From the NCBI GenBank assembly GCA_036925085.1, contig JAUPFP010000014.1, positions 1,492,001 through 1,556,000 of the forward strand: a stretch of 64,000 nt of DNA. The letters run 5' to 3'. The stretch is from Brachycybe producta. Taxonomy: Eukaryota; Arthropoda; Diplopoda; Playtdesmida; Andrognathidae. The translations under genes were made by a program, and so were the position numbers. Every line of letters begins with the position of its first letter. Within the stretch, counting starts at the first letter, position 1. A model generated the notes under the pieces. That model did no database searches. It saw only the letters and a list, made by a program, of their open reading frames with translations, and was not told the origin of the DNA. Below are positions 3,701 through 52,215 of this stretch, piece by piece.

Positions 3701-6700
3701 TTGTCATAATTTTATTCTTGAAAAAGATCGACTAATTAGAGTTCGAGGGGCGTTTACATTTTAAAATCACCTTAAAGTCGTGATCTTTTTCCAATCGTTT
3801 TGTAGGACCTTAAAGATAAAGTGAACATTTCTCCTTGCGGTGTCGCTTTCGTTAAGTCTGAAATCCGAAAAGGAATTCTTCCAAGAATGTTAGAAGAGAT
3901 ACTGACCACTAGAATAATGGTCAAACTAGCGATGAAACGTAACAAAGAGGACAAAGCTATTCAAAGGATGTTGGACGCGAGACAACTCGGCCTTAAACTC
4001 ATTGCTAACGTCACTTACGGCTACACGTCTGCAAATTTTAGCGGCCGAATGCCTTGCGTCGAGGTAGAAGTTCATCTTACGAAATTCACAATTGCAAAGA
4101 AACTAAAGATTTCTTTTCGTCTCGATAGATTGCCGATAGTGTTGTGAGTAAAGGCCGTGAAACGTTGGAGAGAGCAATCAAACTGATCGAAGACACGGCC
4201 AAGTGGAGAGCGCGCGTCGTCTACGGAGACACGGACAGCGTTTTCGTACTTCTCGAGGGACGCAGTAAAGAACAGGCGTTCGCAATCGGGCAGGAAATCG
4301 TCGAAGCCGTGACTGCCACGAACCCCAAGCCGATAAAATTAAAGCTGGAAAAGGTTTTTTTTTATGTGTTTCGATGTTTCATAAGCAATATTAAGAAGAA
4401 ATTGAAAGTGTTTTAAAAACTAGAATGGTAGCTGAACCAAATATACGAGTAACGAAACTGCTTAGAAGCTATGATTTTTATATAAACTAGAATAGTAAAT
4501 GGATAACTTAAGTGCACATTTTTATTACAAGTTTGAAAAAAAAGATTAAATTTTGATGTTTTTAGGGATTTTCTTTGCAAGATGAAATGAAAACAAATTA
4601 CAAACTGACATTGTTAGTTTATTTTAAACGATATCAACATGAAAAGGTCTTTCAGTGAGTCATTTACTGTTCTCGCTTTCAATTTCTTCTTAAAAGCGTC
4701 GCCTTCCATCGAATCAATCGTATTAACGAGCGAGAAACAATTTTTATTTGTGTTACGTGTGTAGGTTTATCTACCGTGCGTTCTTCAAACGAAGAAGCGA
4801 TACGTCGGCTACATGTACGAGACTCCGGATCAGAAAGATCCAGTTTACGATGCTAAGGGTATCGAGACAGTGAGAAGAGATGGTTGTCCGGCTGTTGCTA
4901 AAGTAATTTTACAACCGAAATATTTTAACGCGAAACTTGTTGATTTGTGTTTAAAGTGTAAGCGGTGCTCCTTTTAAAATTTGATGAATTTTGCAAAATT
5001 AAGAGTAACTTGAAAGTGGTTTTTTTTTAGAAACTAGAAGGGTAGCTCAATCACGTAAGGGTATTTTCATGTTGTTGATATCTTTTCTATTTTATCGAAA
5101 AACGTTGAAGCTGCCTAACTTTTGATTAATAAATTGCACATTGGAAATTCTATTATTTATAAATGGCGTCTTGCCATTTCCGTAAGCTCACTAGGTTAGT
5201 TTTTATAGATTTTATTTGTGCGCCAGACGTAAACGTTTTCAATTCAATCGAAAAAACGTTGAATGAAAAGAAAACTTTGAAGCTGCGTATCTTTTGATTA
5301 ATAAACCACTCATCAGAAATTCGATTATTTTCGGATAGCGCTTTATTTTCTAAATAAAATGGCGTCTTGAAGTTTTCGTAAGCTCGCTAGTTTATGCTGT
5401 CTTACGTTCGTGCAGCTAATGCACCCCATACAGCCTTACAGAAAAATGACGTCACTACCATGCCGTACCACACTGAACTGTGGTACAACCCGCCGGCTGT
5501 GACGTCATTTTTCTGCACTGCTGTATCCATTAGCTGCATGGACGTAACAAGAGCATCCATTTTTGAATGCGCGCGAAACTTTCAATGGGCAATCAATGAC
5601 TTAAGTGATTGAGAAACCCCTTCTAGTTTCTAAAACACTTTCAAAGTTTATTTTAGTTTTGCTCTTCTGAAAGACAGAATAATCAGAGTTTTAGTCACGT
5701 TTACACTTTAAAACCAGCTTAAAAGTTGTTTCTAAAAATTCTTTTTTAAATATTTAGATACTGGAGAAATCTCTTCGAATTCTTTTCGGCACGCTCGACG
5801 TTTCTCAAGTGAAGACGTACGTTGTTCGTCAGTTTCAGAAACTGATGAGCGGTCGCGTGAATCTACAAGATTATGTCTTTACGAGAGAGTATAAAGGGAG
5901 ACACAGTTACACGTTAGAGACTCACGCGCCTGCTTTGAGGATTGCTCGTCAGAGGCTTCGAATTGATCCTCGTTCCGAGCCCAGAACTCAAGAACGCGTT
6001 CCCTACGTCATCGTTTACGGAAGTCCCGGTTCTCTTCTCATCGATCTCGTTCGACATCCTCACGATTTTCTTCAGAACACGTCTTTAAGGCTTAATACCA
6101 AATATTACATTGGAAATGTCATCATTCCACCTCTGGATCGTGTGTTTTCGCTTCTCGGAGCGAACGTACGGCATTGGTTAGTTCCCATATTAAATTTGTC
6201 ATTTATGTTTACGAGAAACGGATTTTTAAAAACTATTTTCTTGTCTTCGTTGCTATATTTTTTTTAGGTACGCAACGATGAGTCGTACGAATCGTATTTC
6301 GTTACCACACGAAGTTCGATCTCACGAACTCGGAACCATATCTCAGTATTTCATCTCTTCGAATTGCCCGGTATGCGACAAACCCTCGACGACGAGGGGA
6401 GTCTGCGAGGCTTGTTCGACCGATCCGCAGTCGGCAGCTGTCGTACTGTCGGACAGAATTCGAGATTGGGAACGGCGTCACTCTCATCTTTCAAAAGTAA
6501 CGATTAAATCCGAAATTGTTCATTTTTTTATACATTTATTCGAAAGGTTTTTTTTTTTCAGAATCGAAATTAAGAGAAATTTTAAAAGTGTTCTAGAAAC
6601 TAGAAGGGGTAACTTAGTCACTTAAAATGTATTTCAATGTCGATGTTGAAAATGAACCAACTTAAAGTAGACATTTTTTTAAAAATTTTCTCTATAAAAA

Positions 6701-11612: not shown

Positions 11613-11702
11613 TAACTTAGATGTAAGTAGTACTGGTTTATATCTAGCCGAGTCGGTATTTCATCGGATTCTTTTGTTTTTGTCGTAAAAGTTTATTCTT
11701 CA

Positions 11703-14531
11703 TTGCACTTTGTGTCATTAGTTGTCAGTAAGTTTTTAATTAGTTATTTATTCAAATTCAATGAGACAGTGATGGAAAACATCACGGCGTCATCACTTAT
11801 AGACGTTAAAATTCTGTCCGATTCGTTTTTATTAAACGATTATTCGGATTCGGATACGTTTTCTTACGTTAACGTTGAGTGTCACTCAAACAGTTCAGAA
11901 AACGACTTAAAGAATGTTGAAAAAGAAGAAGAAAACCATCATTATCCAACGGCTTTAACTGTTTATTACGAGATTAAAGTGGAAAAAACTAACGATGAAG
12001 AAGCGGAGTCCGAAAACAGCAACAACGATAAGTATTTTAATTCAGTTTCCATAAAAAAAGAATGCGAAAAAGAAGTTTCGTCAGATTCAGACACGAAAAT
12101 CAGTTGTCATGGCGACGACGACGATGTAAACAAAAAAGCACATGGCCACCTACTTGCACGCGCGCGACACAGTCCAATCACGTTCGACGACTTCGAACAA
12201 AGCGACACGCGCGTTTCAGCGACGGAGGAGAGTTACGTCACTAGCGTCGAAGCTGCAGCAGCACGTCTGATACGCTTTGGTGACGTCACTGCGTTACGCG
12301 TTGATAAGAGTGACGTCATTGATGTCGGAACTGATCGCGGTCTTTCAACTCCTAATAAGGAAGAGTGCGATAACGATGACGTCATAGCGCCTAATTGCGA
12401 TGGTGTTCTTCCTGATGAGATTCCTCAGCCATGTCGTGACGAAACGGCCGCAGTATTTAACAATTGCGAGCCGTTTTCGCCACCTGGCGATGTTCCCAAA
12501 GATTTGATCTCTTCTGCATGCGCATCCCAACGTCGTTTAGATAGTGGAACTGTCCAGTATGTTTCTATTAAACCGGTTACTCAATACGTGCCACTTCAAC
12601 CGGCTCAAAATACTGTCGAAAGAATGTATGGATCACCTCCACGTCATGGGACTTTTGAACGGGTTCTACCCTTATGTAGTGGAGGTGTTGATTCGTCTGG
12701 TTTTTTGCGTGCTCTAATGCACGAACCATATCAATCTAGACAGAATGCACCATTCGAACCTATTCAACTGAGACAGAGAGGACCATGCGACCCGGTTCCA
12801 CCTAGACACAGTGGACTGTTTTCACCTAGACAGTGTGGACCATACGAATCGGTTCCACTTAGACAGCGTGGACCATACGAATCGGTTCCACCTAGAGAGC
12901 GTGGACCATACGAATCGGTTCCACCTAGACAGCGTGGACCATACGAATCGGTTCCGCCTAGACAGTGTGGACCATACGAATCGGTTCCGCCTAGACAGTG
13001 TGGACCATACGAATCGGTTCCGCCTAGACAGCGTGGACCATACGAATCGGTTCCGCCTAGACAGCGTGGACCATACGAATCGGTTCCGCCTAGACAGCGT
13101 GGACCATACGAATCGGTTCCGCCTAGACAGCGTGGACCATACGAATCGGTTCCGCCTAGACAGCGTGGACCATACGAATCGGTTCCGCCTAGACAGCGTG
13201 GACCATACGAATCGGTTCCGCCTAGACAGCGTGGACCATACGAATCGGTTCCGCCTAGACAGCGTGGACCGTACGAATCGGTTCCGCCTAGACAGTGTGG
13301 ACCGTACGAATCGGTTCCGCCTAGACAGTGTGGACCGTACGAATCGGTTTCGCCTAGACAGTGTGGACCGTACGAACCGGTTCCACCGAGACGTTGTGAA
13401 CCGTGCGAACCATATCCACCTAGGCAGAGTCGACCATACGAACCGTATCGATCCGGAAATGGACCAAATGATGGAATGTATGAAGGAAATGACAGTTCGA
13501 ATGACTTTATCCGAAATGAAATTAACAGGTGTTTCAACCCGAACTTCATACCGCAACAGCGTTCGGCACGAAAGCGAAAACTATCTGATGAAAGTTACGA
13601 TGATGACGAAGATTACGGAAGTCCTGCGAAAAGACGAAAGTTTATAAACGAACGCGACTTCAGTTCGTTTCAAGAGAAATATCAAAGATTGAGAATAAAT
13701 CGGCATCTTTTCAATTCACGATCCGATGGAGAAATGGTCTCGAATCGAAACATATCCGGAAATCGAATTTCACCCAACGATTCCGGATATCTTTCGGAAA
13801 ATACGTTCCTTGAAGTTAATCGTCAAATGTCGCAATTGTCAAATTCATCGGTTCATGAATCGAACAACGCAACAAATTCCAATGCGATTCCGTTCGTTAG
13901 CGATGATCCCGATGAAAATGACGACAATAACGATCCCGAATGGGAATATCTTCATCGTTTGGATACGGACGACGAACGATACAAAGCCGTACGACAACGA
14001 TGGAGGAATATTTCGATTCCTAATCCGAATCAGAATCTAACGAAACAGAATTATCGTAAGAAACTTCACGAAGAGAATCTTTACGGTGGAACACCGAGTT
14101 TCAAGGATCGAAAACGAATGCAAAATGGCGAACTACCGAACCCGAAACGTTTTCGTAACGATTTTAAAAACAATTTTAAAGTTTTTGATTTTCGTGTCAG
14201 TAATATGAGAATGAATTTCGAATTGGAACGTAAATCTTTGGTAACGAAATATACGAACAAAAAACGCGAATTCGGTGTTCGTTGCGACCAAAACCAAATG
14301 CAAACGATTGAAAAAACGCATGCGAACGAATTGAAATTGCTAAATGACAAATTTCAAAGTCAAATTCAAAAATTAATGAATTCGAGAGAAGAAATTGTCG
14401 CGTTTCAATCATTTTATTGTGGACTGAAGAATTCGGACAACGACATAAGTATGTTGTTGGACGATGGTCAGTTGCTTGATATTCAAGAAACTGACCGAAT
14501 GTATACTATGTATCCTTCTTATTATCGTTGA
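11703..14531 (+). CDS. Acidic, repeat-bearing probable nuclear protein, single long frame
   Basis: An uninterrupted 942-codon frame runs to the TGA at 14529-14531. A second in-frame ATG at 11772 (residue 24, followed by ENITASS) has a good context (CAGTGATGG). I favour it as the start, because the first 23 residues come from AT-rich sequence unlike the rest. The N-terminal third is rich in Asp, Glu and Ser. Residues about 370-560 hold seventeen copies of an 11-residue unit close to GPYESVPPRQR. The next part has a bipartite nuclear-signal pattern (RKRKLSDESY ... AKRRKF). The C-terminal 120 residues are Lys/Glu/Gln-rich and look coiled-coil forming. I recognise no family. The non-repeat parts keep a codon-like, GC-richer composition in the same frame, which supports real coding. 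Introns cannot be excluded. Confidence 0.75.
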   Translation: MHFVSLVVSKFLISYLFKFNETVMENITASSLIDVKILSDSFLLNDYSDSDTFSYVNVECHSNSSENDLKNVEKEEENHHYPTALTVYYEIKVEKTNDEEAESENSNNDKYFNSVSIKKECEKEVSSDSDTKISCHGDDDDVNKKAHGHLLARARHSPITFDDFEQSDTRVSATEESYVTSVEAAAARLIRFGDVTALRVDKSDVIDVGTDRGLSTPNKEECDNDDVIAPNCDGVLPDEIPQPCRDETAAVFNNCEPFSPPGDVPKDLISSACASQRRLDSGTVQYVSIKPVTQYVPLQPAQNTVERMYGSPPRHGTFERVLPLCSGGVDSSGFLRALMHEPYQSRQNAPFEPIQLRQRGPCDPVPPRHSGLFSPRQCGPYESVPLRQRGPYESVPPRERGPYESVPPRQRGPYESVPPRQCGPYESVPPRQCGPYESVPPRQRGPYESVPPRQRGPYESVPPRQRGPYESVPPRQRGPYESVPPRQRGPYESVPPRQRGPYESVPPRQRGPYESVPPRQRGPYESVPPRQCGPYESVPPRQCGPYESVSPRQCGPYEPVPPRRCEPCEPYPPRQSRPYEPYRSGNGPNDGMYEGNDSSNDFIRNEINRCFNPNFIPQQRSARKRKLSDESYDDDEDYGSPAKRRKFINERDFSSFQEKYQRLRINRHLFNSRSDGEMVSNRNISGNRISPNDSGYLSENTFLEVNRQMSQLSNSSVHESNNATNSNAIPFVSDDPDENDDNNDPEWEYLHRLDTDDERYKAVRQRWRNISIPNPNQNLTKQNYRKKLHEENLYGGTPSFKDRKRMQNGELPNPKRFRNDFKNNFKVFDFRVSNMRMNFELERKSLVTKYTNKKREFGVRCDQNQMQTIEKTHANELKLLNDKFQSQIQKLMNSREEIVAFQSFYCGLKNSDNDISMLLDDGQLLDIQETDRMYTMYPSYYR
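12281..12385. promoter_or_regulatory. Three TGACGTCA palindromes in 105 bp of coding sequence
   Basis: Exact TGACGTCA octamers occur at 12281-12288, 12311-12318 and 12378-12385, within the N-terminal coding part of the 942-residue ORF. The octamer is the canonical CRE/ATF binding palindrome. Here it may simply encode the Val-Thr / Val-Ile codons, so a regulatory role is only a possibility. Confidence 0.35.
12821..13390 (+). repeat. 33-bp tandem array inside the 942-residue ORF
   Basis: Seventeen units of 33 bp (CCTAGACAGCGTGGACCATA followed by CGAATCGGTTCCG) encode GPYESVPPRQR. Eight central units are almost identical (13027-13280), while the edge units differ (CAGTGT for CAGCGT, GAGCGT, CCACCTAG). 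This pattern suggests recent homogenisation in the centre. Because 33 is a multiple of three, several other frames on both strands also stay open here; those are shadows. Confidence 0.95.
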
Positions 14532-21379: not shown

Positions 21380-21975
21380 CCTAGCTTAAGAATACAAGTA
21401 GATGATTTATTTTGTTCGTGTATAGCTTTAGGTGGCGCCACTAGCCCTCCTCCCATAGAAATGTAATGCTGACATTCACCTTTCTTTTTTTTGCACGTGG
21501 CAAACTTAATTGCGTCATCGCTATTTACCTCTACACGTGCTCTCTCTTCATTTATATGTTGTTCTGGGTATAAGTTTGTCCACGTGCTGATAATTGAGGT
21601 TGTTTTGGACGCGCTTTTAGAGCTAAAAAGGGTGCATTCGATTTCAACTAATTGGTGACGAGTGTAGTTTGCCACCTATTGGAGGACACGCAATTAGAAA
21701 TCGGGACGAACACAAGTTGGCTCCGCCCTTTTTATGACGACAGGCAACTTCTAATTGGTTGGTTATGTAGTCTGTGACGTCATATGCTCCGCCCCTTTTC
21801 AACGTCGAACCACACAACAAACCAATTAGAAGTTCCCAGTCGTCATAAAAAAAAAGCGGAGCCAACTGAAGTTCGTCCCGATTTCTAAATGCCTGTGTTT
21901 GGCACTTATTGAGGTTGCATGGCGCCATCTACCTTGCATTTACACAAGTATTTTTTTCTACGAAGCCCCTCTTAA
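21380..21975. mobile_element. Family L element interrupted by a family B MITE
   Basis: The left part (ACAAGTAGATGATTTATTTT, GGTGGCGCCACTAG) and the right part (GGCGCCATCTACCTTGCATT, then CGAAGCCCCTC) resemble the smaller block at 43805-43965. A family B MITE occupies about 21686-21896. It is flanked by similar sequences of about 18 bp, GTTTGCCACCTATTGGAGG and GTTTGGCACTTATTGAGG. Confidence 0.6.
21686..21896. mobile_element. Family B fold-back MITE
   Basis: The left arm has GCAATTAGAAATCGGGACGA and the GGCTCCGCCC box. The right arm returns GCGGAGCCAACTGAAGTTCG and ends GCCTGT. It is inserted in the family L block. Confidence 0.8.
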
Positions 21976-42715: not shown

Positions 42716-44067
42716 TCACTGATGTGGATTCATTGGCTGATTTCCTGTGCCTCGCGGTCCTCCTTGGCCTCCTGTGCCTTGTGGTCCTCCTTGGCCTCGT
42801 GGTCCTCCTGTGCCTCGTGGCCCTCCTGTGCCTCGTGGCCCTCCTGTGCCTCGTGGCCCTCCTGGGCCTCGTGGTCCTCCTTGTTGGAATTGTTGTGGTG
42901 GACCTGATGATGATTGTCTGTTTACTGGCTGAGTTCCTGGGGTTCGAGGTCCTCCTGGTTGGGTTTGTGTTCCTCCTGTTTTGGTTTGTGTGCCTCCTGG
43001 TTGGCCTTGTTGTCCTTGCACTTCGTGGAATGCTGCATCTTCATCAGGATCTTCTCCTTCGTGATCTTCTCCTTCGTGATCTTCTTCTTCATAACCATCG
43101 TCATGAATATCCTCAACACCACCCGTTGGATGCCCATTGTAGTTCTCATCACCATCTATTGGAGGTCCATTGTAGTACTCACCGCCACCGTAATTTGGAT
43201 TATGAAGTCCTCCACCGCCACCGTAATTTGGATTATGAAGTCCTCCACCGCCACCGTACGGTTGCTGTTGTTGAGGTTGAGCCATGTTGCGGCTGAATTC
43301 ATGTTCTTCTCTTTCGTGTCCTTTTCCACCCATTCCTTGTTGGTTGTTTTTGCCATTGCGTCCTTTTTTGCCTTTGGAACCTCTTATGGATCCTAATTGC
43401 AGATCGTTGGATTTCATTCGCTTGTTTGAACAGCAACACTTTTTCCGAATACACTGTCCAGATACTCTAGCATATCCTGCATTTATTTCCTGTGGTTGCC
43501 GACACTTTCTTTCACACCTGATATTACGAGCTTTCAGGCCAACTTTTTTATTATCGCATATGGTGTTGTCACAGAAGGACATAGTGTCACGACGTTCGCT
43601 CATCAGACTGTCGCTAACGAAGTCTCCAATTTCTGCAAATTAGAAGAATAAATAAGGCCTTAATGTGATTGTGTGAAAAAAAGGGCAGATTTTCACATTG
43701 TCGGAATGTTTGGATGGGAAGGATCGGTTCCGATTTCGAACAATTCAAGGATGGATTGATTCTGGTTAACATTTCAATTGTCCTGCAACAGAGGGCCCTT
43801 GAATCATTTCTTTTCAGAAAGTCTAGGTTAGATTAAGAGTGCAAGTAGAGCATTTATTTTGTCATTTGTAGCGTTAGATGGCGCTACTATGCCATCTATG
43901 GAGGCTGCAAGCGCCATCTACCTTGCATTTACATAAGCATTTTTCTATGAAGCCCCTCCCCCACCTCTCAAGGTTAGAAAAGAGAAAAACTTACCAAATG
44001 TGGTCACTTCGCCTAGTGCGATGGTTATGATGACCAACATGATGGCGATACTGACGTAACCAGCCAT
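42716..44067 (-). CDS. Secreted defensin-like eight-cysteine protein with Gly/Pro-rich collagen-like tail
   Basis: Two exons on the minus strand, 44067-43995 and 43632-42716, join in phase 1 (GTAAG donor, TTTGCAG acceptor) into 329 residues. Exon 1 is a signal peptide (MAGYVSIAIMLVIITIALGE). Cysteines at residues 45, 50, 64, 68, 85, 90, 91 and 92 give C-x4-C-x13-C-x3-C-x16-C-x4-CCC with a GQC before the fifth. C-x3-C and C-x4-CC are the spacings of big- and beta-defensins; the CSalpha-beta layout is also compatible. A basic linker follows, then a Gly/Asn/Tyr part with two GGGGGLHNPNY units, an acidic EEEDHEGEDHEGED part, and a C-terminal stretch of alternating GPR-GTG triplets that is formally Gly-X-Y. 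The product should be secreted; an antimicrobial or matrix role is inference. A GTAAGT donor on this strand near 45050 suggests a noncoding first exon. The paralogue lies about 4.7 kb away. Confidence 0.85.
43430..43573 (-). other. Eight-cysteine defensin-like module of the first gene
   Basis: The module runs from the first cysteine (FCDNTIC) to the terminal CCC. It contains CERKC and then GQCIRKKCCC, which has the GxC...C pattern called the gamma-core in antimicrobial peptides. All eight cysteines align one-to-one with the module at 50204-50320. Confidence 0.75.
43805..43965. repeat. Family L element inside the intron of the first defensin-like gene
   Basis: CAAGTAGAGCATTTATTTTG and GTTAGATGGCGCTAC at the left pair with GCGCCATCTACCTTGCATTT at the right. 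The right end, TATGAAGCCCCTCC, matches the block near 21960. It sits between the two coding exons without touching the splice sites. Confidence 0.7.
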
Positions 44068-44344
44068 TGTAGAAGTACGCCTTTAAAAAGTGTTAAATCA
44101 TAGCATATATTGAGGTTGAAAATTAGGGTTCAATGGTTAGATTGTCACACAACACACACTGGTTCACGAAAGTGACTGTTCTAGTTTCTAAAATGATAAT
44201 TTTTTGTGAAATGGTCTCAAGCTGAAAGAATCATAAAACCAAAATCATAAAATACAACTTGGTTGCACCTTTAAAAAGGTGTATAGGCCCTATTATAATT
44301 TGTCATAATACCTTAAGGTGGTATTAGGCCCAAAGCCTTGAATT

Positions 44345-44890
44345 TGGACCTTGAAAAGTGGTTACTTCTAAAGGTGTCATCCGGTTTCCAAATTTTGTAC
44401 GATTTTAAGTTATTTACTTTTTTTTATTAAGGCCCTTTTTGACACACAAACGACTTTTTGCACTGCAAAATGAAGACGGTATTGTCGCTCAATATCTGAC
44501 CACTTTGAGACCACTTGCGGTGATTGTAATGCGGTCCAATTATGGTTGAGTGAACAAGCAAAAACAAAATTGATCGTATTTGGCGACATGAATGGTCTCA
44601 TTAGCCATTCATGCAAAGTAAACAAGATCAAAGAGACCGGCTGAAAGTGGTTGTAAAATTGTCTACGTGTCAACGACAAACGGTTGTCGTCGGTGGCGAA
44701 GAATTGACCACCTTTTGGCTACAGAAGTGCTGAGAAGTCAGAAAATTCTTGATGTATTTGTAAGATGTATTTTCATAGAAAATACATTGCAACCACAACT
44801 CAACCACCTTCGACTTCATTTTGCGGTTGAAAAGTGGTCAACTTTTAAAAGTGTGGTTGCTAGAATTACACCTTTAGATGTTAAAGGTGT
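44345..44890. repeat. Family J-related inverted block
   Basis: ACTTCATTTTGCGGTTGAAA near 44814 matches the family J phrase at 14609. The left side has GCACTGCAAAATGAAGACGG in inverse sense, and TCTAAAGGTGTCATCC / ACACCTTTAGATGTTAAAGG flank the block. Frames crossing it are not gene-like. Confidence 0.5.
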
Positions 44891-45380
44891 GTGTCACTTC
44901 AGTGTACTTGATTATAAGCGATTATATCGCTAATTAACAATTACAAAAAATACTCTGCAAACAGCCGGTTGGCCTATGGCAGAGGGATCTTAAGTAATTA
45001 ACACCTTTAATGATGGTGTAATCATAATAATAAAAAAAAAGAAAACTTACCGGGTTTGTTTTCTTACAAATTTACAACTCTGCCTGGTTCTGTTTCCTAA
45101 GTTTGTAACGAATTTTGTTAATGACCCACTTTTTTAAATGATGTGACTAGTTTTATATGAGGTGTTAGGTTAGATGAGGTTAGGACCAGGTGTTCTTGTT
45201 TTTAGGCAGGATATGACACTCGGGCTTCTCTTTCCTTTTCTCTTAACGACAAACTTTTCACGTTGACGGTGAATGATTTGAAGGCTGAAGACAGATGTGG
45301 TTTTTGTTCCTTTTGTTAAAAAAAAAAACAGATGAAAATTTCCATTTTTCGGAAAACTAATATTCAATTGTTACGCAGAA

Positions 45381-45382
<2 letters not shown>

Positions 45383-45408
<26 letters not shown>
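45383..45408. repeat. TA microsatellite
   Basis: AT dinucleotides repeat for about 26 bases, immediately before a family E element. Confidence 0.9.
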
Positions 45409-45411
<3 letters not shown>

Positions 45412-45592
45412 ACTGTCGATCTGGGGAATCAGTCAATGTGCATATTGCCTAGGCAATCTGCAACAACAACCAATCTGCAATATTCAATACATTTTAAATG
45501 TTGCATTTTGCAGATTCACCAGCATGTTGGTTTTGCAGATTACCAAGGCAATCTGCAGAATGACTGATTCCGCAGATTGACAGTCATTCGTA
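45405..45592. mobile_element. Family E fold-back element, second copy
   Basis: TTTTACTGTCGATCTGGGGA ... CCGCAGATTGACAGTCA are the ends. ATTGCCTAGGCAATCTGCA lies near the left and CAAGGCAATCTGCAGA near the right. It aligns with 15221-15420. Its left end abuts the TA microsatellite. Confidence 0.8.
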
Positions 45593-45727
45593 ACGGGGAA
45601 AAAGACACGTATGATAAGTTCATTGGTTGTAAAATTGTGTCAAGAGAATTACTCTTAGAAAAGTTCAATGTCAAAATATATAGTTTTTTTCCCCCTCACG
45701 AAAATACAACTAATATATAAATTAATC

Positions 45728-45813
45728 ACACCTTAACCTAATCAAATTGTGTGCAATTTGCCTAACTCAGTGTTAGGCAAATTGCACACAAATTGATTAG
45801 GTTAAGGTGTGAT
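45728..45813. repeat. Near-perfect palindrome
   Basis: CACACCTTAACCTAATCAAA...TTGTGTGCAATTTGCCTAAC and its inverse GTTAGGCAAATTGCACACAA...TTAGGTTAAGGTGTG enclose only about four bases. Confidence 0.92.
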
Positions 45814-45869
45814 TAATAGATTTTTATTAGAATTACAAATGATGCCACTAGGTGGAGTTACGTGGCCAC

Positions 45870-46285
45870 TCCCCTTAGATCTCAATGGCTAAGTTTTAAG
45901 AAGTGATTTTACGGTTACAAGTACGGAGCTTTTTTAAAGCATTTTGTAAACAAAATTCATTGTGTTTTCGAAACTTGATGAATAAATGAAGCGAGTGAAC
46001 CCTTTTTTCTGACGAGAAATCTGTTCGGAAATAATCATTTTATGACAGTTTTTAAAAGCCGATTTTTGGATTTTTGCTATTATCGGCGTTTTTAAAACTG
46101 TTATTATTAAATAATTATTTCCGAACAAAGATCGTCACAAAAAAGGATTCATTCGCTTAATTTATTCGTCAAGTTTCGAAAAAAAAAAAACAATGAATTT
46201 TGTTTATGCTTTAAAAAAGCTCCATACTTGTAACCTTGTAAATTCTCTTGTTAAAACTTAGCCACGTTCATTGAGATCTAAGGAG
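45870..46285. repeat. Fold-back of about 410 bp
   Basis: ACTCCCCTTAGATCTCAATG with GTTACAAGTACGGAGC at the left pairs with GCTCCATACTTGTAAC and TTCATTGAGATCTAAGGAGC at the right. ACAAAATTCATTGT pairs with ACAATGAATTTTGT, and TTCGGAAATAAT pairs with ATTATTTCCGAA. It is the longest simple fold-back in the window after the 24480-25055 palindrome and the composite family D. Confidence 0.85.
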
Positions 46286-46378
46286 CATGGCCACGATAAG
46301 ATGCGTAGTGATGGTAACGCCGCCCTAGGAGCACGATTTACAAGTAAAAAACCTAATGGTCACCACCGAATCGTGTAT

Positions 46379-46585
46379 ACAGGCAATTAGAAAACGGGAT
46401 GAACAGAAGTTGGCTCCGCCCTTTTTATGACGAACGGCAACTTCTAATTGGTTTGTTGTGTGGTTCGACGTTGAAAAGGGCGGAGCATGTGACTTCAGAC
46501 TACATAACCAACCAATTAGAAGTTGCCGTTCGTCATAAAAAAGGGCGGAGCCAACTTCTGTTCATCCCGTTTTCTAATTGCCTGT
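46379..46585. mobile_element. Family B fold-back MITE with exact 9-bp duplication
   Basis: It starts ACAGGCAATTAGAAAACGGG and ends AATTGCCTGT. The flanks ATCGTGTAT at 46370-46378 and 46586-46594 are identical. This is the cleanest copy. Confidence 0.93.
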
Positions 46586-46624
46586 ATCGTGTATACAGTT
46601 TTACACAGTGTTGTGTAAAACTGC

Positions 46625-46705
46625 TGGGCTTCTAAAGTGATTGTGTTACCCTTCTAGTTTCTAAAACATTTAAAAGTTTTTTCTTAACTTTTGCACCTGA
46701 AAAAC
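46625..46705. mobile_element. Family A right-arm fragment
   Basis: AGTGATTGTGTTACCCTTCT followed by AGTTTCTAAAACATTT is a right arm without its partner. Confidence 0.6.
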
Positions 46706-47715
46706 AGAATTACCGGAGTTTGATGGATGTTTTTATTTACTCTTTAAAAAAAATCACCTGAAAACTCTTCTAAATCTCAGCTGAGTTAAAAGTAGTTTAG
46801 TTGAAGTGGGATTTGCATAAAACTAAATTAAAATAAATTAATCCAAGTTAAGAATGAATACAAATTTAGAAGAAAAACAGGGTTTACATGAGGAAAGTTT
46901 TTAAAGTTAGAAAAATTAAGTTAAAAGTTAGACGAAGTGGGAATTAGAAGAAAAAAATTATATATATAATATCCCAAGTCTGTGTATGTGTGTGTGTGTG
47001 TGTGTGGAGTAACACTGTACAAACCCCTTGAAGCACGTCGGAGTTTATATAAATTTGAATAAATAAACCGTTTTTTTTTCTCAAGGTCAACTATATGTTG
47101 AACTCTTCCTTTGGAAAGTGTAGAAGGGGGGGGGGAGAGAGAGAAAAGTGGGAGGGGTGACTGAAATTGAAATGAAAAGGAGTAAAAAAAAGGAAAAAAC
47201 GACGCGCATGCGCACAATTGCCTGTGAATTTTGCTCCCGTCATTTATGACGGGTTACCCACCCCACTAGTAATTATATATAGTAGGAGCAAACATTGACA
47301 TAACAGTGGTTCAGGCAAAGTAAGAGTTAGGGTCGGCTTCACACGGGGACCATTTTTGTGGTACCACAAAGTGGGCCGCCTTCGGTTTCACTGTGTTTTC
47401 CTTCTTTTAAAAAAAAGTGGCCTATACTCCTAATGCTAGCAGTGATTGCCCAACTTTAGGATGAAATATTAACTAGAACTCTTGTTAAATAGATTAGAAA
47501 AACCCGGATCTTGTTGACGTCACCGTTTAAAACAGGTGGCCTTTTAAATGAATGAAAAGGCCATGGGTTCATCTGTTTCATTCTCATATTTTCGATTTCC
47601 TTTATGAATATTAATTTTCACCTTACTGACGTCAAATCTACTTGAGAACGTTTTTTTTTTAATATTACGTCATTTAAGTAACTACGTTTAAGTAATTGTT
47701 TTTTATGAGCAATAT
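46706..47715. other. Noncoding stretch
   Basis: It includes a TG microsatellite at about 46982-47005 and a G tract at 47127. No supported gene. Confidence 0.45.
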
Positions 47716-47719
47716 TAAG

Positions 47720-47925
47720 AGAAAAACAATAGAAAAGTGTCTTAGAAACTAGAAGAGTAGCTCAATCATTTTAAAATTATATTAAAAATATATCAACATG
47801 AAAATATCATGTTGATATATTTTTTTTTAAAATAAACTTTTTATAGTTTGGTTATTTTTCAAACTTAAAACATAAAAAGTTTATTTTGAAAGATATCATT
47901 TAAGTGATTGAGTTATACCTAGTAA
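47720..47925. mobile_element. Family A fold-back element
   Basis: TCTTAGAAACTAGAAGAGTA and TAAGTGATTGAGTTATACCT are the arms. The central TATCAACATGAAAATATCAT is itself palindromic. A family C element begins at its right edge. Confidence 0.7.
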
Positions 47926-48215
47926 ACACACCTGATAATTTAAATGCATTTAAATAATAAACGTGTTTCTACAGAGCCCTGTGAAGGACAAACAAACAGT
48001 ATGTCGAATTCAATTTATTCAGTTAATTAATCTGAAAATGTTGAGTTAATATTTAAATATAATTTATAAACTATTGACATTAAAATATTGATTTTGTATT
48101 TCAATTTAAAATATTAATAATTAAAGTCAATTTTTATTTGGTGTTCATGTCCTTAACTGAATTCCGTATAATTCACCTAAACACATTTAATTTGAATTCC
48201 TATAACTCATGTGTC
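47925..48215. mobile_element. Family C element
   Basis: It begins CACACCTGATAATTTAAATG and contains ACAGAGCCCTGTGAAGGACA and ATTCCGTATAATTCACCT. It is opposite in orientation to 41170-41440. Confidence 0.8.
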
Positions 48216-48404
48216 TACAAAGGTATTATTACTCTTCTAGTTTCTATAAACACATTCAAGTTTTATCTTAATTTTCCCCATTAAAACAATATCTTAACTA
48301 GAATAAAAAATAGAAAGAAAGACAATAAAATAATATATTAACAAAATATGTTTTATTTGTCAACTTTAAACGGGAATCTGAACCGGTAATTATTAATTAC
48401 GGTT

Positions 48405-48730
48405 CGGATTTTTATGCAATATCGAAGCGACTGTTTCTCAATTTGTGGCCCGAGGGCCAATTTTGAAGTAATCATCTTCATCATCATTAGAACAACTGCA
48501 ATTATGCTTTTTATGATTAAAAAAATGACTGGTTAGAGGCTAGAACTCTCTTGTTGATACTTGATAATAACCAAAACATCTAGCCTCTAACCGGTCTTTT
48601 TTATTTGAAAAAAAACTATTAATTGTTGGTTGATTTTCTGAATTGGAGATTGTAACTTCAACAATTGGCACTTGTGGCCACAGATTGAGAAACATTTGCT
48701 TTGATATTTTGCATAAAAATCCGAGCCTTA
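48405..48730. mobile_element. Family F fold-back adjoining the second defensin-like gene
   Basis: GGTTCGGATTTTTATGCAAT and TTGCATAAAAATCCGAGCC are the ends. GGTTAGAGGCTAGAA and TCTAGCCTCTAACC are the inner arms. It ends about 7 bp beyond the stop codon of the minus-strand gene (48737-48739). It carries TTTATT at 48600-48605, an AATAAA on the gene's strand about 130 nt downstream of the stop. Confidence 0.85.
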
Positions 48731-48736
48731 GAAGGA

Positions 48737-51230
48737 TCACCATAATACGTAATGGTGTTCTAAATGTAGAGTTTCTGGAATTTCTCGTTTATTCCTCGAG
48801 TTTTTCGATTTTGCTTTATTTTTGGGACTTCGTCCAGTTGTTGACCGACGTTTATTGGTTCCTCTTCTTTTTCGTTTGTTTTTCGGCTTAGATTTCGTTG
48901 TTTTACGTTTCTTCTTCCCTTTTTTCTTCTTAGTAGGCCTACCTTTTTTTCTAGTTTTCGCCTTTTTCTTCTTTGGTTTACGTTTCTTTTTAGAATTTCT
49001 GATTTTCTTGTTGTTTTTAGTGTTTGAATCTTCATCTTCATTTTCAGGAATCATTGTCTGAATTCCATTTTGTCCTCTTTGTTTCTTATTTCCTCCATTT
49101 TTTGGTGATCGTATGGCAAAGTCTTCATGTTCTGGGTATTGTTGGCCATCATGAGGTCGTTCGTTGTTGGTTGGTTGCCAGTTTCCATTTTGGGTGTGTT
49201 TTGGATAAGACTGTTCCCAGTTGGGTTCTTCATTGTCTATTTGCCAGGGATCAAACTGGCCATAATTTTGGTCATTTTCATGGTCATTTTGCATTGGATC
49301 CCATGATCCATATTGGTCGTTTTCGTCATATACTGGTGCCCAGTTTTCATTTTCATTGTGTTCTGGATTCCACTGTCCAAAGTTTTGTCCATATTCACTG
49401 TGTTCTGGATTCCACTGTCCAAAGTTTTGTCCATATTCACTGTCTCCGTTTTCTGGTTCCCAATTTTTATTTCCTGTATGCTTTGGATTAAATTGGCCCT
49501 GTTCTTGTCCTCCATTGTTATCTTCATCTACTGGCTCCCAATTTTCGTTGCCTTTGCGCCTTGGAGTAGGTTGATCCTGTTCTTGTCCTCCATTGTTGTT
49601 ATCTTCATCTACTGGCCCCCAATTTCTTTTGCCTTTGGGCCTTGGGTTAAATTGACTCTGTTCTTGTCCTCCGTTGTTATTATATTCATCTACTGGCCCC
49701 CAATTTTCACTGCCTTTGCGCTTTGGGTTAAATTGACCCTGTTCTTGTACTCCATAATGGTCATTGTCATCTACTGGTCCCCAATTTCCTTTGCTATTGG
49801 GTCTTGGATTAAATTGACCCTGTTTTTGGCCTCCATTGTTGTTATCTTCATCTACTGGCCCCCAATTTTCACTGCCTTTGCGCCTTGGATTAGGTTGATC
49901 CTGTTGTTGTCCTCCATCATGGAAATCGTAGTCTTCTGGTTCCCCATTTCCATTTCCTTTGCTATTTTGGTACCACTGGCCTTGATAGTATCCATCTGAA
50001 TCATCATCCGGTTCCCTATTTCTGCTATTGTCATTGGTTTCTCTTTGGTAAGGTTCTGAACTATCTGGCATGTCCTCGTCATTGTCATCTTCATTGTCCT
50101 CTTCTGGGTTTTCGTAACTGGTGTCGGAATAACGATTGTTGTATTTGTTTAGTTTTCTTCTTCGTCTTGCGGCCTTTCGTTTTCTGTTTGGCTTTTTCGT
50201 TGAGCAACAGCATTTTGTATTCGAACAAAAACCATATTTGTAATTTTCTAATTGGCAATCGTTTTTGCAATCGAATTTGGCCTTTTCCTGGTCTGGAATG
50301 TGACAGAATTGCATTTTACAGTTAAGTCGTTGGTCGGCCGGCGTCTCCATATCGGTAAAATCATCTAAGAATTATGGAATTGAGAAAAGGTGTGTTTTAT
50401 GAACGGTTGAATTTCGAAAACTCTTGATTATTCTACGATTTAAGAACAGCGCACTAAGGAGAAATTGAAAGTGTTTTAGAAACTAGAAGGGTAGCCCAAT
50501 TACTGAAGCGGTATTTTTCATGTTTGATATATTTCAAAAATTTTCAAACTGCCATAAAAAGTTTATTTTAAAAGATAACAGCTGATTTTGACATTCTGAT
50601 TAAGTCTGTCTTTCAAAAGAGCATAAATTAAGAAGAAACTGGAAAATATTTTAGAAAACTAGAAGTGTAGTTCAATCACTTTAGGGTCATTTTTATATTG
50701 ATATCTTTCAAAATAAACTTTTTAAAGACAAAAATATAGATATATCGTCTGCTTTATGTTCAGAAATGTTTCAAACTGACTTAAAAGTTTATTTTGAAAG
50801 ATATCAAACATAAAAATAGCCTTAATTTATTGAGGCGCTACCCTTCTAGTTTCTAAAACACACGTTTCTTTTCGATTTTGCAACTTAAGTATTTTCATTT
50901 TGAATGACATCTTTCAAAATAAACGTTTTTGTAGACAAAAACTGACAAAAAATATCGTCAGCCTTAGTTATTTTTCAAAATGACATTAAAAAGCTTATTT
51001 TGAAAGATATGAAAAATAATACCCTCTTAAGTTATAATTTAGTTACCCTTCTAGTTTCTGAAACACTTTTCAGGTTTCTTCTTAATTTTGGCTTTTTTTT
51101 AAAAAAAAAAAAAAAGAGTGTAAATAATCAGCTGACCAAACTAACTTTTTGTTTCGATGATGCTGACCACCACGCTCATTAGTAACTGTAACGCCACACT
51201 GACACTCAAGACACCGTTGTAACCCTTCAT
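48737..51230 (-). CDS. Secreted defensin-like eight-cysteine protein with Asn/Gln repeat tail and Lys-rich end
   Basis: Two minus-strand exons, 51230-51146 and 50364-48737, join in phase 1 (A|GTTAGT donor, TTCTTAG acceptor) into 570 residues. Exon 1 reads as a signal peptide (MKGYNGVLSVSVALQLLMSV). Cysteines at 44, 49, 61, 65, 75, 80, 81 and 82 give C-x4-C-x11-C-x3-C-x9-C-x4-CCC, aligned with the paralogue at 42716-44067; the intron position and phase are also shared. A very basic linker (NRKRKAARRRRKL) follows, with tetra-Arg that furin-like proteases could cut. Then come about seven units of roughly 27 residues around NWGPVDEDNNNGGQEQGQ, a Trp/His-containing part, and a strongly Lys/Arg-rich C-terminus. 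The last 15 residues (EIPETLHLEHHYVLW) follow RNKR, a furin-type site. It is expected to be secreted; function unknown. The alternative is a structural matrix protein whose cysteines only crosslink. Confidence 0.85.
49490..49900 (-). repeat. About 81-bp coding repeats in the second defensin-like gene
   Basis: Units encode variants of NPRRKGSENWGPVDEDNNNG followed by GQEQGQF. Five are clear and two more are eroded towards the C-terminus. The reverse strand is also open through the array, which is a shadow. Confidence 0.85.
50204..50320 (-). other. Eight-cysteine defensin-like module of the second gene
   Basis: The module runs from NCKMQFC through CKNDC to YGFCSNTKCCC. GFC...C fits the gamma-core pattern, and the C-x3-C-x9-C-x4-CC part has exactly beta-defensin-type spacing. 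It is shorter than its paralogue by two and seven residues in the two variable loops. Confidence 0.75.
50455..51085. mobile_element. Family A cluster in the intron of the second defensin-like gene
   Basis: Three copies lie in line: 50455-50600 (left arm TTTTAGAAACTAGAAGGGTA), 50635-50880 (complete, right arm GCGCTACCCTTCTAGTTTCT) and 50880-51085 (right arm TAGTTACCCTTCTAGTTTCT). They make up most of the 781-bp intron. Confidence 0.75.
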
Positions 51231-51599
51231 TGTTTTGAAATTGTAGGAACGGTTTTGGTCCTTAAGGAACAAGAAGAAGAAGACTTTTTACTTGTAAAAA
51301 AAAAAAGTATCTTTGGGAACCGGTTATAGGTTTTGTTGGACAACCGTAAAAGTTTTGTTAGGTTTTCTAGTCTCTTCTTCTGTTGTAATTTGCAACGTGT
51401 CAAAACAGCTGTGTTTTATGTTAAAAAAACCTAAAGTGAGTGAGAAAGAGAAAATCCATACATCCTAAATGAGGATTTTTACCCAATATTTCGTCTCAAA
51501 TGGACGGTATTTATTTACCGCTTGAAAAATTAGACATTAACCACGAATGAACCAAGAAATTGGTTTCATCTTGTAAGGTGCAGCTTTTTAAAAAAAAAT

Positions 51600-52215
51600 T
51601 CAAAAAAGTTTGCTTAGAAACTAGAAGAGTAAATTGATTGAGTCGCCCTTCTAGTTTCTAAAGCACAGTCGTTTTTATGTTGATATTTTTCAAAAGAGGA
51701 AAGTGGAGTTACACTTCTACTTTCTAAAGTACATTCGTGTTTCATGTGTTTTATGTTGATATCTTACAAAATAAACTTTTTATAGGCAAGTTTTTAAAAA
51801 TATTGCCCTAAAAAGCTTAATTTGAACGATATCAACATGAAAGTACCTTTGAGTGATGGAGTTACCCTTTTACTTTCTAAAGCACATTCAGGTTTCATGT
51901 GTATTTTATGTTGATATCTTACAAAATAAACTTTTTATTGACAAGAATTTTAAAAATATTGCCATAAAAAGCTTAATTTGAAAGATATCAACATGAAAGT
52001 ACTCTTGAGTGATGCAGTTACCCTTCTACTTTCTAAAGCACATTCAGGTTTCATGTGTGTTTTATGTTGATATCTTACAAAATTAACTTTTTATTGACAA
52101 GAATTTTAAAAATATTGCCATAAAAAGCTTAATTTGAAAGATATTAACATAAAAGTACTCTTGAGTGATTGAGTTGCCCTTCTAGTTTCTAAAGCACAAT
52201 TCAGGTTTCTCTTCA
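51600..52215. mobile_element. Family A derivative amplified as about three tandem units of 160 bp
   Basis: Blocks at about 51727-51890, 51891-52047 and 52048-52205 share TCATGTGT.TTTTATGTTGAT, AAAAAGCTTAATTTGAA and GAGTGATG.AGTTACCCTT. The units derive from a family A right half. They lie about 370 bp 5' of the second defensin-like gene. Confidence 0.8.

Follow-up and report, generated by a model that had tools for sequence, protein, structure and literature searches.

Two neighboring genes in the diplopod Brachycybe producta appear to encode secreted proteins that combine a compact eight-cysteine module with a long, repetitive tail. Both are members of a larger genomic family of such tailed exons. 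The genes, here called A and B, lie on the minus strand of the 64,000-nucleotide stretch that we analyzed (the window; C14:1492001-1556000, in a 295.3-Mb genome of 442 contigs); positions given without a contig are window positions. We put the probability at roughly one half that each protein is a secreted CSαβ head with a repetitive tail that retains the head in extracellular material. The module itself is very probably a CSαβ domain, given its signature, most of its profile matches, and the predicted fold of B.

Gene structure and fold of the eight-cysteine module

When rebuilt by GT-AG splicing, gene A yields a protein of 329 amino acids and gene B one of 570, with 4.7 kb between the start of A at 44067 and the end of B at 48737. 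In both, splicing and hydropathy point to a signal-peptide-like first exon (44067-43995, MAGYVSIAIMLVIITIALG..., in A; 51230-51146, MKGYNGVLSVSVALQLLMSVVVS..., in B) that ends in phase 1. A phase-1 GT-AG intron follows (43633-43994, GTAAGT...TTTGCAG, in A; 50365-51145, GTTAGT...TTCTTAG, in B), and the second exon (43632-42716 in A; 50364-48737 in B) encodes the eight-cysteine module, a basic linker, which includes R-R-R-R in B, a low-complexity tail, and the stop codon. The best 12-residue hydropathy means of the hydrophobic N termini are 3.26 (A) and 2.48 (B), values that express hydropathy only and are not a SignalP prediction. These gene structures are confirmed at the level of the sequence, and the architecture that the initial annotation proposed for the two genes was recovered, the signal peptide being judged by hydropathy. 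At about 43833-43889 the A intron also holds a short interspersed repeat copy with at least 40 further matches in the genome at 84 to 91% identity.

From the first cysteine through the CCC end, the modules of A (43430-43573; cysteines at residues 45, 50, 64, 68, 85, 90, 91, and 92) and B (50204-50320; cysteines at residues 44, 49, 61, 65, 75, 80, 81, and 82) correspond cysteine for cysteine, with spacings of C-x4-C-x13-C-x3-C-x16-C-x4-CCC and C-x4-C-x11-C-x3-C-x9-C-x4-CCC, respectively. Both the spacing and the start of the module at residue 44 or 45 are as first described, and neither protein has a cysteine outside the module. A six-frame scan of the whole window found the eight-cysteine pattern in two places only, A and B; 60 windows simulated by a first-order Markov model gave no match.

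Because the modules were chosen by their cysteine pattern, homology was tested with shuffles in which the cysteines stayed fixed. Sixteen modules of the family described below were aligned, a 17th (C14:3.6475 Mb) having come later; the eight cysteines and one glycine are invariant in all 16, which had been picked by pattern. Against a leave-one-out profile of the other 15, A scored 23.6 bits and B 26.6 bits, and 0 of 500 cysteine-fixed shuffles reached the score in either case. This comparison of sequences supports a relationship between A and B beyond the cysteines. Ten further modules, with near kin left out too, likewise gave 0/500. The remaining ones were weaker (shuffles of 500 reaching the score: L011, 8; C2a, 2; C2b, 55; C2c, 91), so the placement of the gene on C2 depends mainly on its cysteine pattern. 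In tblastn searches of the genome, the A module matched nothing but A itself, and the B module did not recover A.

The CSαβ (cis-defensin) signature consists of C-x3-C and C-x-C pairs with G-x-C between them. A five-row alignment that includes a six-cysteine relative has C-x3-C and G-x-C-x4-C-x-C as its invariant columns, the middle cysteine of CCC not being invariant, and the signature is present both there and in all 16 modules, the latter selected by pattern. In a Pfam scan of these 16 modules, PF24552 (Defensin-like) matched 9, Gamma-thionin 7, Defensin_2 3, and Defensin_beta 3. With a 16-row profile, the best 60 of 62 PDB matches, classed by title, comprised about 49 toxins of scorpions or defensins of plants, insects, fungi, or nematodes; beta-defensins accounted for 3 and a macin for 1, and another 7 entries were unclassed by title. 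The top match was 8gxt, mehamycin of Meloidogyne hapla (expectation value [E], 1.7e-4). For the B module, single-sequence AlphaFold2 predicted a strand (8-11), a helix (19-32), and two further strands (37-41 and 44-48) with a predicted local distance difference test score (pLDDT) of 76, and CSαβ toxins or defensins are named in 14 of the top 15 Foldseek matches to this β-α-β-β model. The A module is placed by alignment, profile, and pattern scan, its fold model being too weak.

Other results pull away from a CSαβ assignment. The five-row profile has Beta-defensin 104 at its top (E, 0.002), with scorpion toxins next, from an E of 0.005. B, at 21.8 to 23.1 bits, misses the curated PF24552 cut-off of 27 bits, and A is unmatched; a genome search with PF24552 gave 20 matches up to an E of 10, B among them and A not, of which the 2 above the cut-off (29.5 bits) are untailed. 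The Foldseek E-values for B are weak, none being below 0.3 (best, 0.34), and the model of A, at pLDDT 52, has the same order of elements with 0 of 25 Foldseek matches to CSαβ proteins. Profile searches and structure prediction, which the initial annotation suggested as checks, thus bear out the CSαβ reading in part: CSαβ families dominate the former, with single beta-defensin matches remaining, and the latter gave a usable model for B and not for A.

The initial annotation called the modules defensin-like, which holds in the broad sense, and likened them to beta- or big defensins, a reading disfavored by the CSαβ signature, most profile matches, and the model of B. Beta-defensins do resemble the modules in inner spacing and in their adjacent C-terminal cysteines, and they have a three-stranded fold with a CC end. 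Kinship with beta- or big defensins would fit the Defensin_beta matches (best E, 0.049), a Defensin_beta_2 match to B (E, 0.057; 14.3 bits against a cut-off of 22.2), and the recurrence of Beta-defensin 104 in the 16-row profile (E, 0.0048). However, CSαβ matches are far more numerous, the six-cysteine relative retains C-x-C and not CC, and the predicted order in B is β-α-β-β. We consider such kinship highly improbable, an exclusion that falls short of absolute because the Beta-defensin 104 matches persist.

A family with divergent tails

The tails of both proteins are free of cysteine. That of A (42719-43429; 237 residues) is 27% glycine and contains GGGGLHNPNY repeats, acidic DHEGE repeats, and a collagen-like GPR-GTG run; that of B (48740-50203; 488 residues) is 14% asparagine and 11% lysine and comprises an acidic part, repeat units, and a Lys/Arg-rich end. 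The B units, five in number and of the type NW(G/E)PVDEDNNNGGQ, recur in 27-residue steps, the fifth being internally shifted by one residue. Early estimates of 230 to 490 residues for the tails agree with these lengths, and the tails are indeed unrelated, in that no common repeat was found between A and B. A long Gly-X-Y domain, as in collagen, is lacking: the longest run of consecutive triplets is 15 in A and 2 in B, and membership in that group was rejected. All 11 tandem-repeat rows inside the exons of A and B have periods divisible by 3; the scanned stretch holds two more outside them, with periods 2 and 25.

The two genes were first regarded as a paralogous pair. Their relatedness stands on the profile scores against cysteine-fixed shuffles, but they are not a pair only. 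Counting open reading frames (ORFs) that match C-x(4-6)-C-x(6-22)-C-x3-C-x(8-17)-C-x(4-6)-CCC gives at least 13 tailed exon ORFs with at least 17 modules: A, B, a cluster of eight at C14:3.647-3.668 Mb, two more on C11, and another on C2. Since CCC is built into this rule, its presence in every module does not count as a separate finding. Matches of the B module in tblastn were weak (E, 0.06 to 2.3) and included an eight-cysteine ORF at C14:3.666 Mb that contains a long Ser/Asp-rich array, an ORF at C14:3.653 Mb with a low-complexity part preceding the module, and the six-cysteine relative, on C67. The PF24552 search also brought up more ORFs with tails, on C14, C11, and C2, and later protein searches added the one at C14:3.6475 Mb (E, 1.9e-5) and confirmed other members. 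The ORF near C14:3.6595 Mb meets a stop about 20 residues past its module and that at C14:3.6621 Mb opens right after the stop of a neighboring ORF; the 13 may therefore include ORFs that are broken or spliced otherwise.

Members differ in layout as well as in composition. The module stands near the N-terminal end of six ORFs and near the C-terminal end of four; the other three carry two or three modules each, joined by low-complexity links. The other tails are mostly Ser-rich, with one Ser/Asp-rich and one Gln/Ser/Pro-rich, and proline makes up at most 13% of any tail in the family. Cysteine is absent outside the modules in 10 of the 13 ORFs and occurs singly in 3, where it may come from intron read in frame. 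Tandem arrays lie inside seven of the ORFs, and all 23 of their rows, which overlap and are not independent, have a period that is a multiple of 3, as translated repeats should; outside the ORFs at the same loci this is true of 5 of 9 rows, perhaps partly in neighboring family ORFs. The head is conserved, whereas the tails look as if each had grown on its own or had grown until no kinship could be recognized. As a separate observation, the B tail (49483-49951, NW-G/E-PVD) and the low-complexity part of a paralogue (C14:3652528-3653406, NWMPVD) have a short motif in common, at a length for which homology cannot be called.

Upstream of the module exons, a scan for a hydrophobic exon with a phase-1 donor matching GT(A/G)AG found a signal-like phase-1 exon for A and for five paralogues (C14:3.650, 3.6525, and 3.6615 Mb; C11:3.358 Mb; and C2), along with a weak candidate for the C14:3.6595-Mb ORF. 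It missed the signal exon of B, which was found by hand, because the donor there is GTTAG. Phase-1 signal-like exons also precede untailed short CSαβ exons (L019, L020, L030, L033, and L035), those of L019, L020, L033, and L035 being near-identical. Short CSαβ-like peptide exons were seen on C19 (L019, L020, and L035), C37 (L030 and L038), C25 (L033), C18 (L014), and C3 (L064 and L065); L014, L019/L020, and L064/L065 pass a curated Pfam cut-off, and the match in L064 holds one stop. At C14:231597-235469 (L037 and L078), ORFs of 403 and 414 amino acids are apparent chains, each of several six-cysteine CSαβ-type units, and have no low-complexity tails.

Possible roles of head and tail

We infer that A and B would be secreted and that in each the CSαβ domain, at the N terminus, would form three core disulfides, a fourth probably joining the extra N-terminal cysteine to the middle cysteine of CCC. 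The long tail, judged by its composition, would be unstructured and may keep or concentrate the head in extracellular material (a surface coat, a gland secretion, or an egg or cuticle layer), where the disulfide-locked head would perform binding or defensive work. The idea of the tail as an anchor is transferred from a proposal made for the plant defensin-polyproline-linked proteins. The family probably arose from short CSαβ peptide genes, with their signal exon and phase-1 intron, via in-frame growth of repeats beside the module.

Several observations count against retention of a defensive head by its tail. Selection on the B repeats appears weak, with a pooled ratio of nonsynonymous to synonymous differences (pN/pS) of 0.64 over 6 unit pairs, and the signal-exon scan left 6 of the 13 exons without one, B not counted, five of them lacking even a weak candidate. 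As the tails are unconserved and stand on either side of the module, a single anchoring partner common to all is unlikely. The net charge of the 16 modules runs from -1 to +8 (12 positive, 2 zero, and 2 negative), which leaves a general membrane-killing role unsupported.

Because these charges give no sign that all heads act on membranes, we give a modest probability to the alternative that the tail itself does the work, whether as silk, glue, cement, coating, or mineral matrix, and that the CSαβ module acts as a compact disulfide cap or in assembly rather than as an antimicrobial. Such a polymer would suit longer proteins that consist mostly of tail, tails that are Gly-rich, Ser- or Ser/Asp-rich, and Asn/Lys- or Gln/Ser/Pro-rich, modules at either end, at both ends, or in threes, and a module charge that is not consistently positive. 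Yet no sequence common to the tails was detected, and some are short (75 residues before the module in a 124-residue ORF at C14:3.647 Mb); a few word combinations in the open-licence literature brought up nothing useful joining defensins with silk or glue.

The furin-type R-x-R-R site 13 residues past the module of B suggests another alternative, in which the tail is a propeptide cut away to free a short CSαβ antimicrobial or toxin-like peptide; the genome does hold, as noted above, short CSαβ exons that lack a tail and follow a phase-1 signal exon. With one module tested per ORF, however, a furin-type site lies within 40 residues past the module in 1 of the 13 ORFs, and since B alone has it, a precursor role becomes less likely. 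Four members have their low-complexity part before the module, three have two or three modules, and 488 residues would make a very long propeptide. We regard this alternative as quite unlikely.

Retention of a secreted CSαβ head by its repetitive tail is thus the reading we prefer. A bolder proposal, which we think unlikely, is that one arthropod lineage uses CSαβ knots with a CCC lock as end caps or cross-links on fast-changing repetitive tails, the resulting material having a structural as well as a defensive function. CSαβ domains are, to our knowledge, among the most widespread scaffolds for defense and venom and are nearly always short, soluble peptides. An animal multigene family that mounts them on long, unrelated tails built of repeats would show how peptides of this kind are turned into components of a material, and its 13 exons are a natural set for studying the in-frame addition of repeats to a folded domain.

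Neighboring features and comparison with known systems

An interspersed, partly palindromic repeat at 46325-46635 recurs near 21650, 26250, 27250, 28200, 36450, 60500, and 61800, and its chance reading frames (like ...FYDDRQLLIG...) recur over the window. Around B (48200-52200), many copies of a short motif (approximately tttagaaactagaagggta and its complement) resemble, by eye, remnants of small mobile elements. Farther away, a long tandem array (12767-13644) lies within a 966-codon open frame on the plus strand (11631-14528), one frame giving (R/H)LDSVDHTNRF-type units, and ORFs at 3806-6622, judged by eye from a YGDTDSVF motif, are candidate exons for a DNA polymerase of family B, probably the delta enzyme.

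The invertebrate code applies to COX1 and to the mitochondrial contig, C442 (15,359 bp; A+T, 81%). The genes of this contig were named by eye from ORFs and its transfer RNAs (tRNAs) by ARAGORN (25 predictions, some doubled), and both ribosomal RNA (rRNA) genes were placed solely by the gap around trnV. The order, as read in this way, includes E-nad6-cob-S2, then the rRNA genes with V, then nad4L-nad4-H-nad5-F on one strand. It is close to the published table for Polydesmus (PMC8948135), apart from other positions of nad1, nad2, and several tRNAs, and unlike that of Strigamia (PMC4368715). By this gene order the host would be an arthropod, perhaps a progoneate myriapod. Nuclear COX1 copies lie at C1:12697416-12698753 and, in pieces, on C17 (3.33 and 4.00-4.03 Mb); one of them covers the whole Pfam model.

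Among known systems, the module comes closest to the CSαβ superfamily, to which the scorpion K-channel toxins and the defensins of insects, plants, and nematodes belong, whose known members are mostly short peptides, and in whose genes a phase-1 intron after the signal peptide is common. A and B agree with it in C-x3-C and the G-x-C...C-x-C signature, in the β-α-β-β order predicted for B, and in the phase-1 intron; they differ in two extra cysteines, which give the CCC end, and in tails of up to 488 residues. FS50 (PDB 5k6d) is also among the closest known systems. Mehamycin (PDB 8gxt), a drosomycin-type nematode peptide whose CSαβ fold has been solved (PMC9751787), aligns from the first N-terminal cysteine on, but it is a 61-residue chain with an internal insert and a C-x-C end instead of CCC, and it is without a long tail.

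A few word combinations in the open-licence literature did not find an animal CCC-ended CSαβ head with long, varied tails. The initial view that no defensin family has a long tail was nevertheless too strong, since the plant defensin-polyproline-linked proteins (Art v 1, Amb a 4, and Par h 1; PMC10281898) combine a defensin head with a flexible low-complexity tail, although the proline-rich tail of Art v 1 has 53 residues. Membership in that group was rejected on the proline content of the tails (at most 13%) and the invertebrate mitochondrial code, and the likeness is one of design only. The CSαβ fold, and the head-plus-tail design in plants, are already known. The plant proteins are those of pollen, whereas the family described here is animal, and its tails are mostly longer, of unrelated kinds, and on either side of modules that can be repeated.

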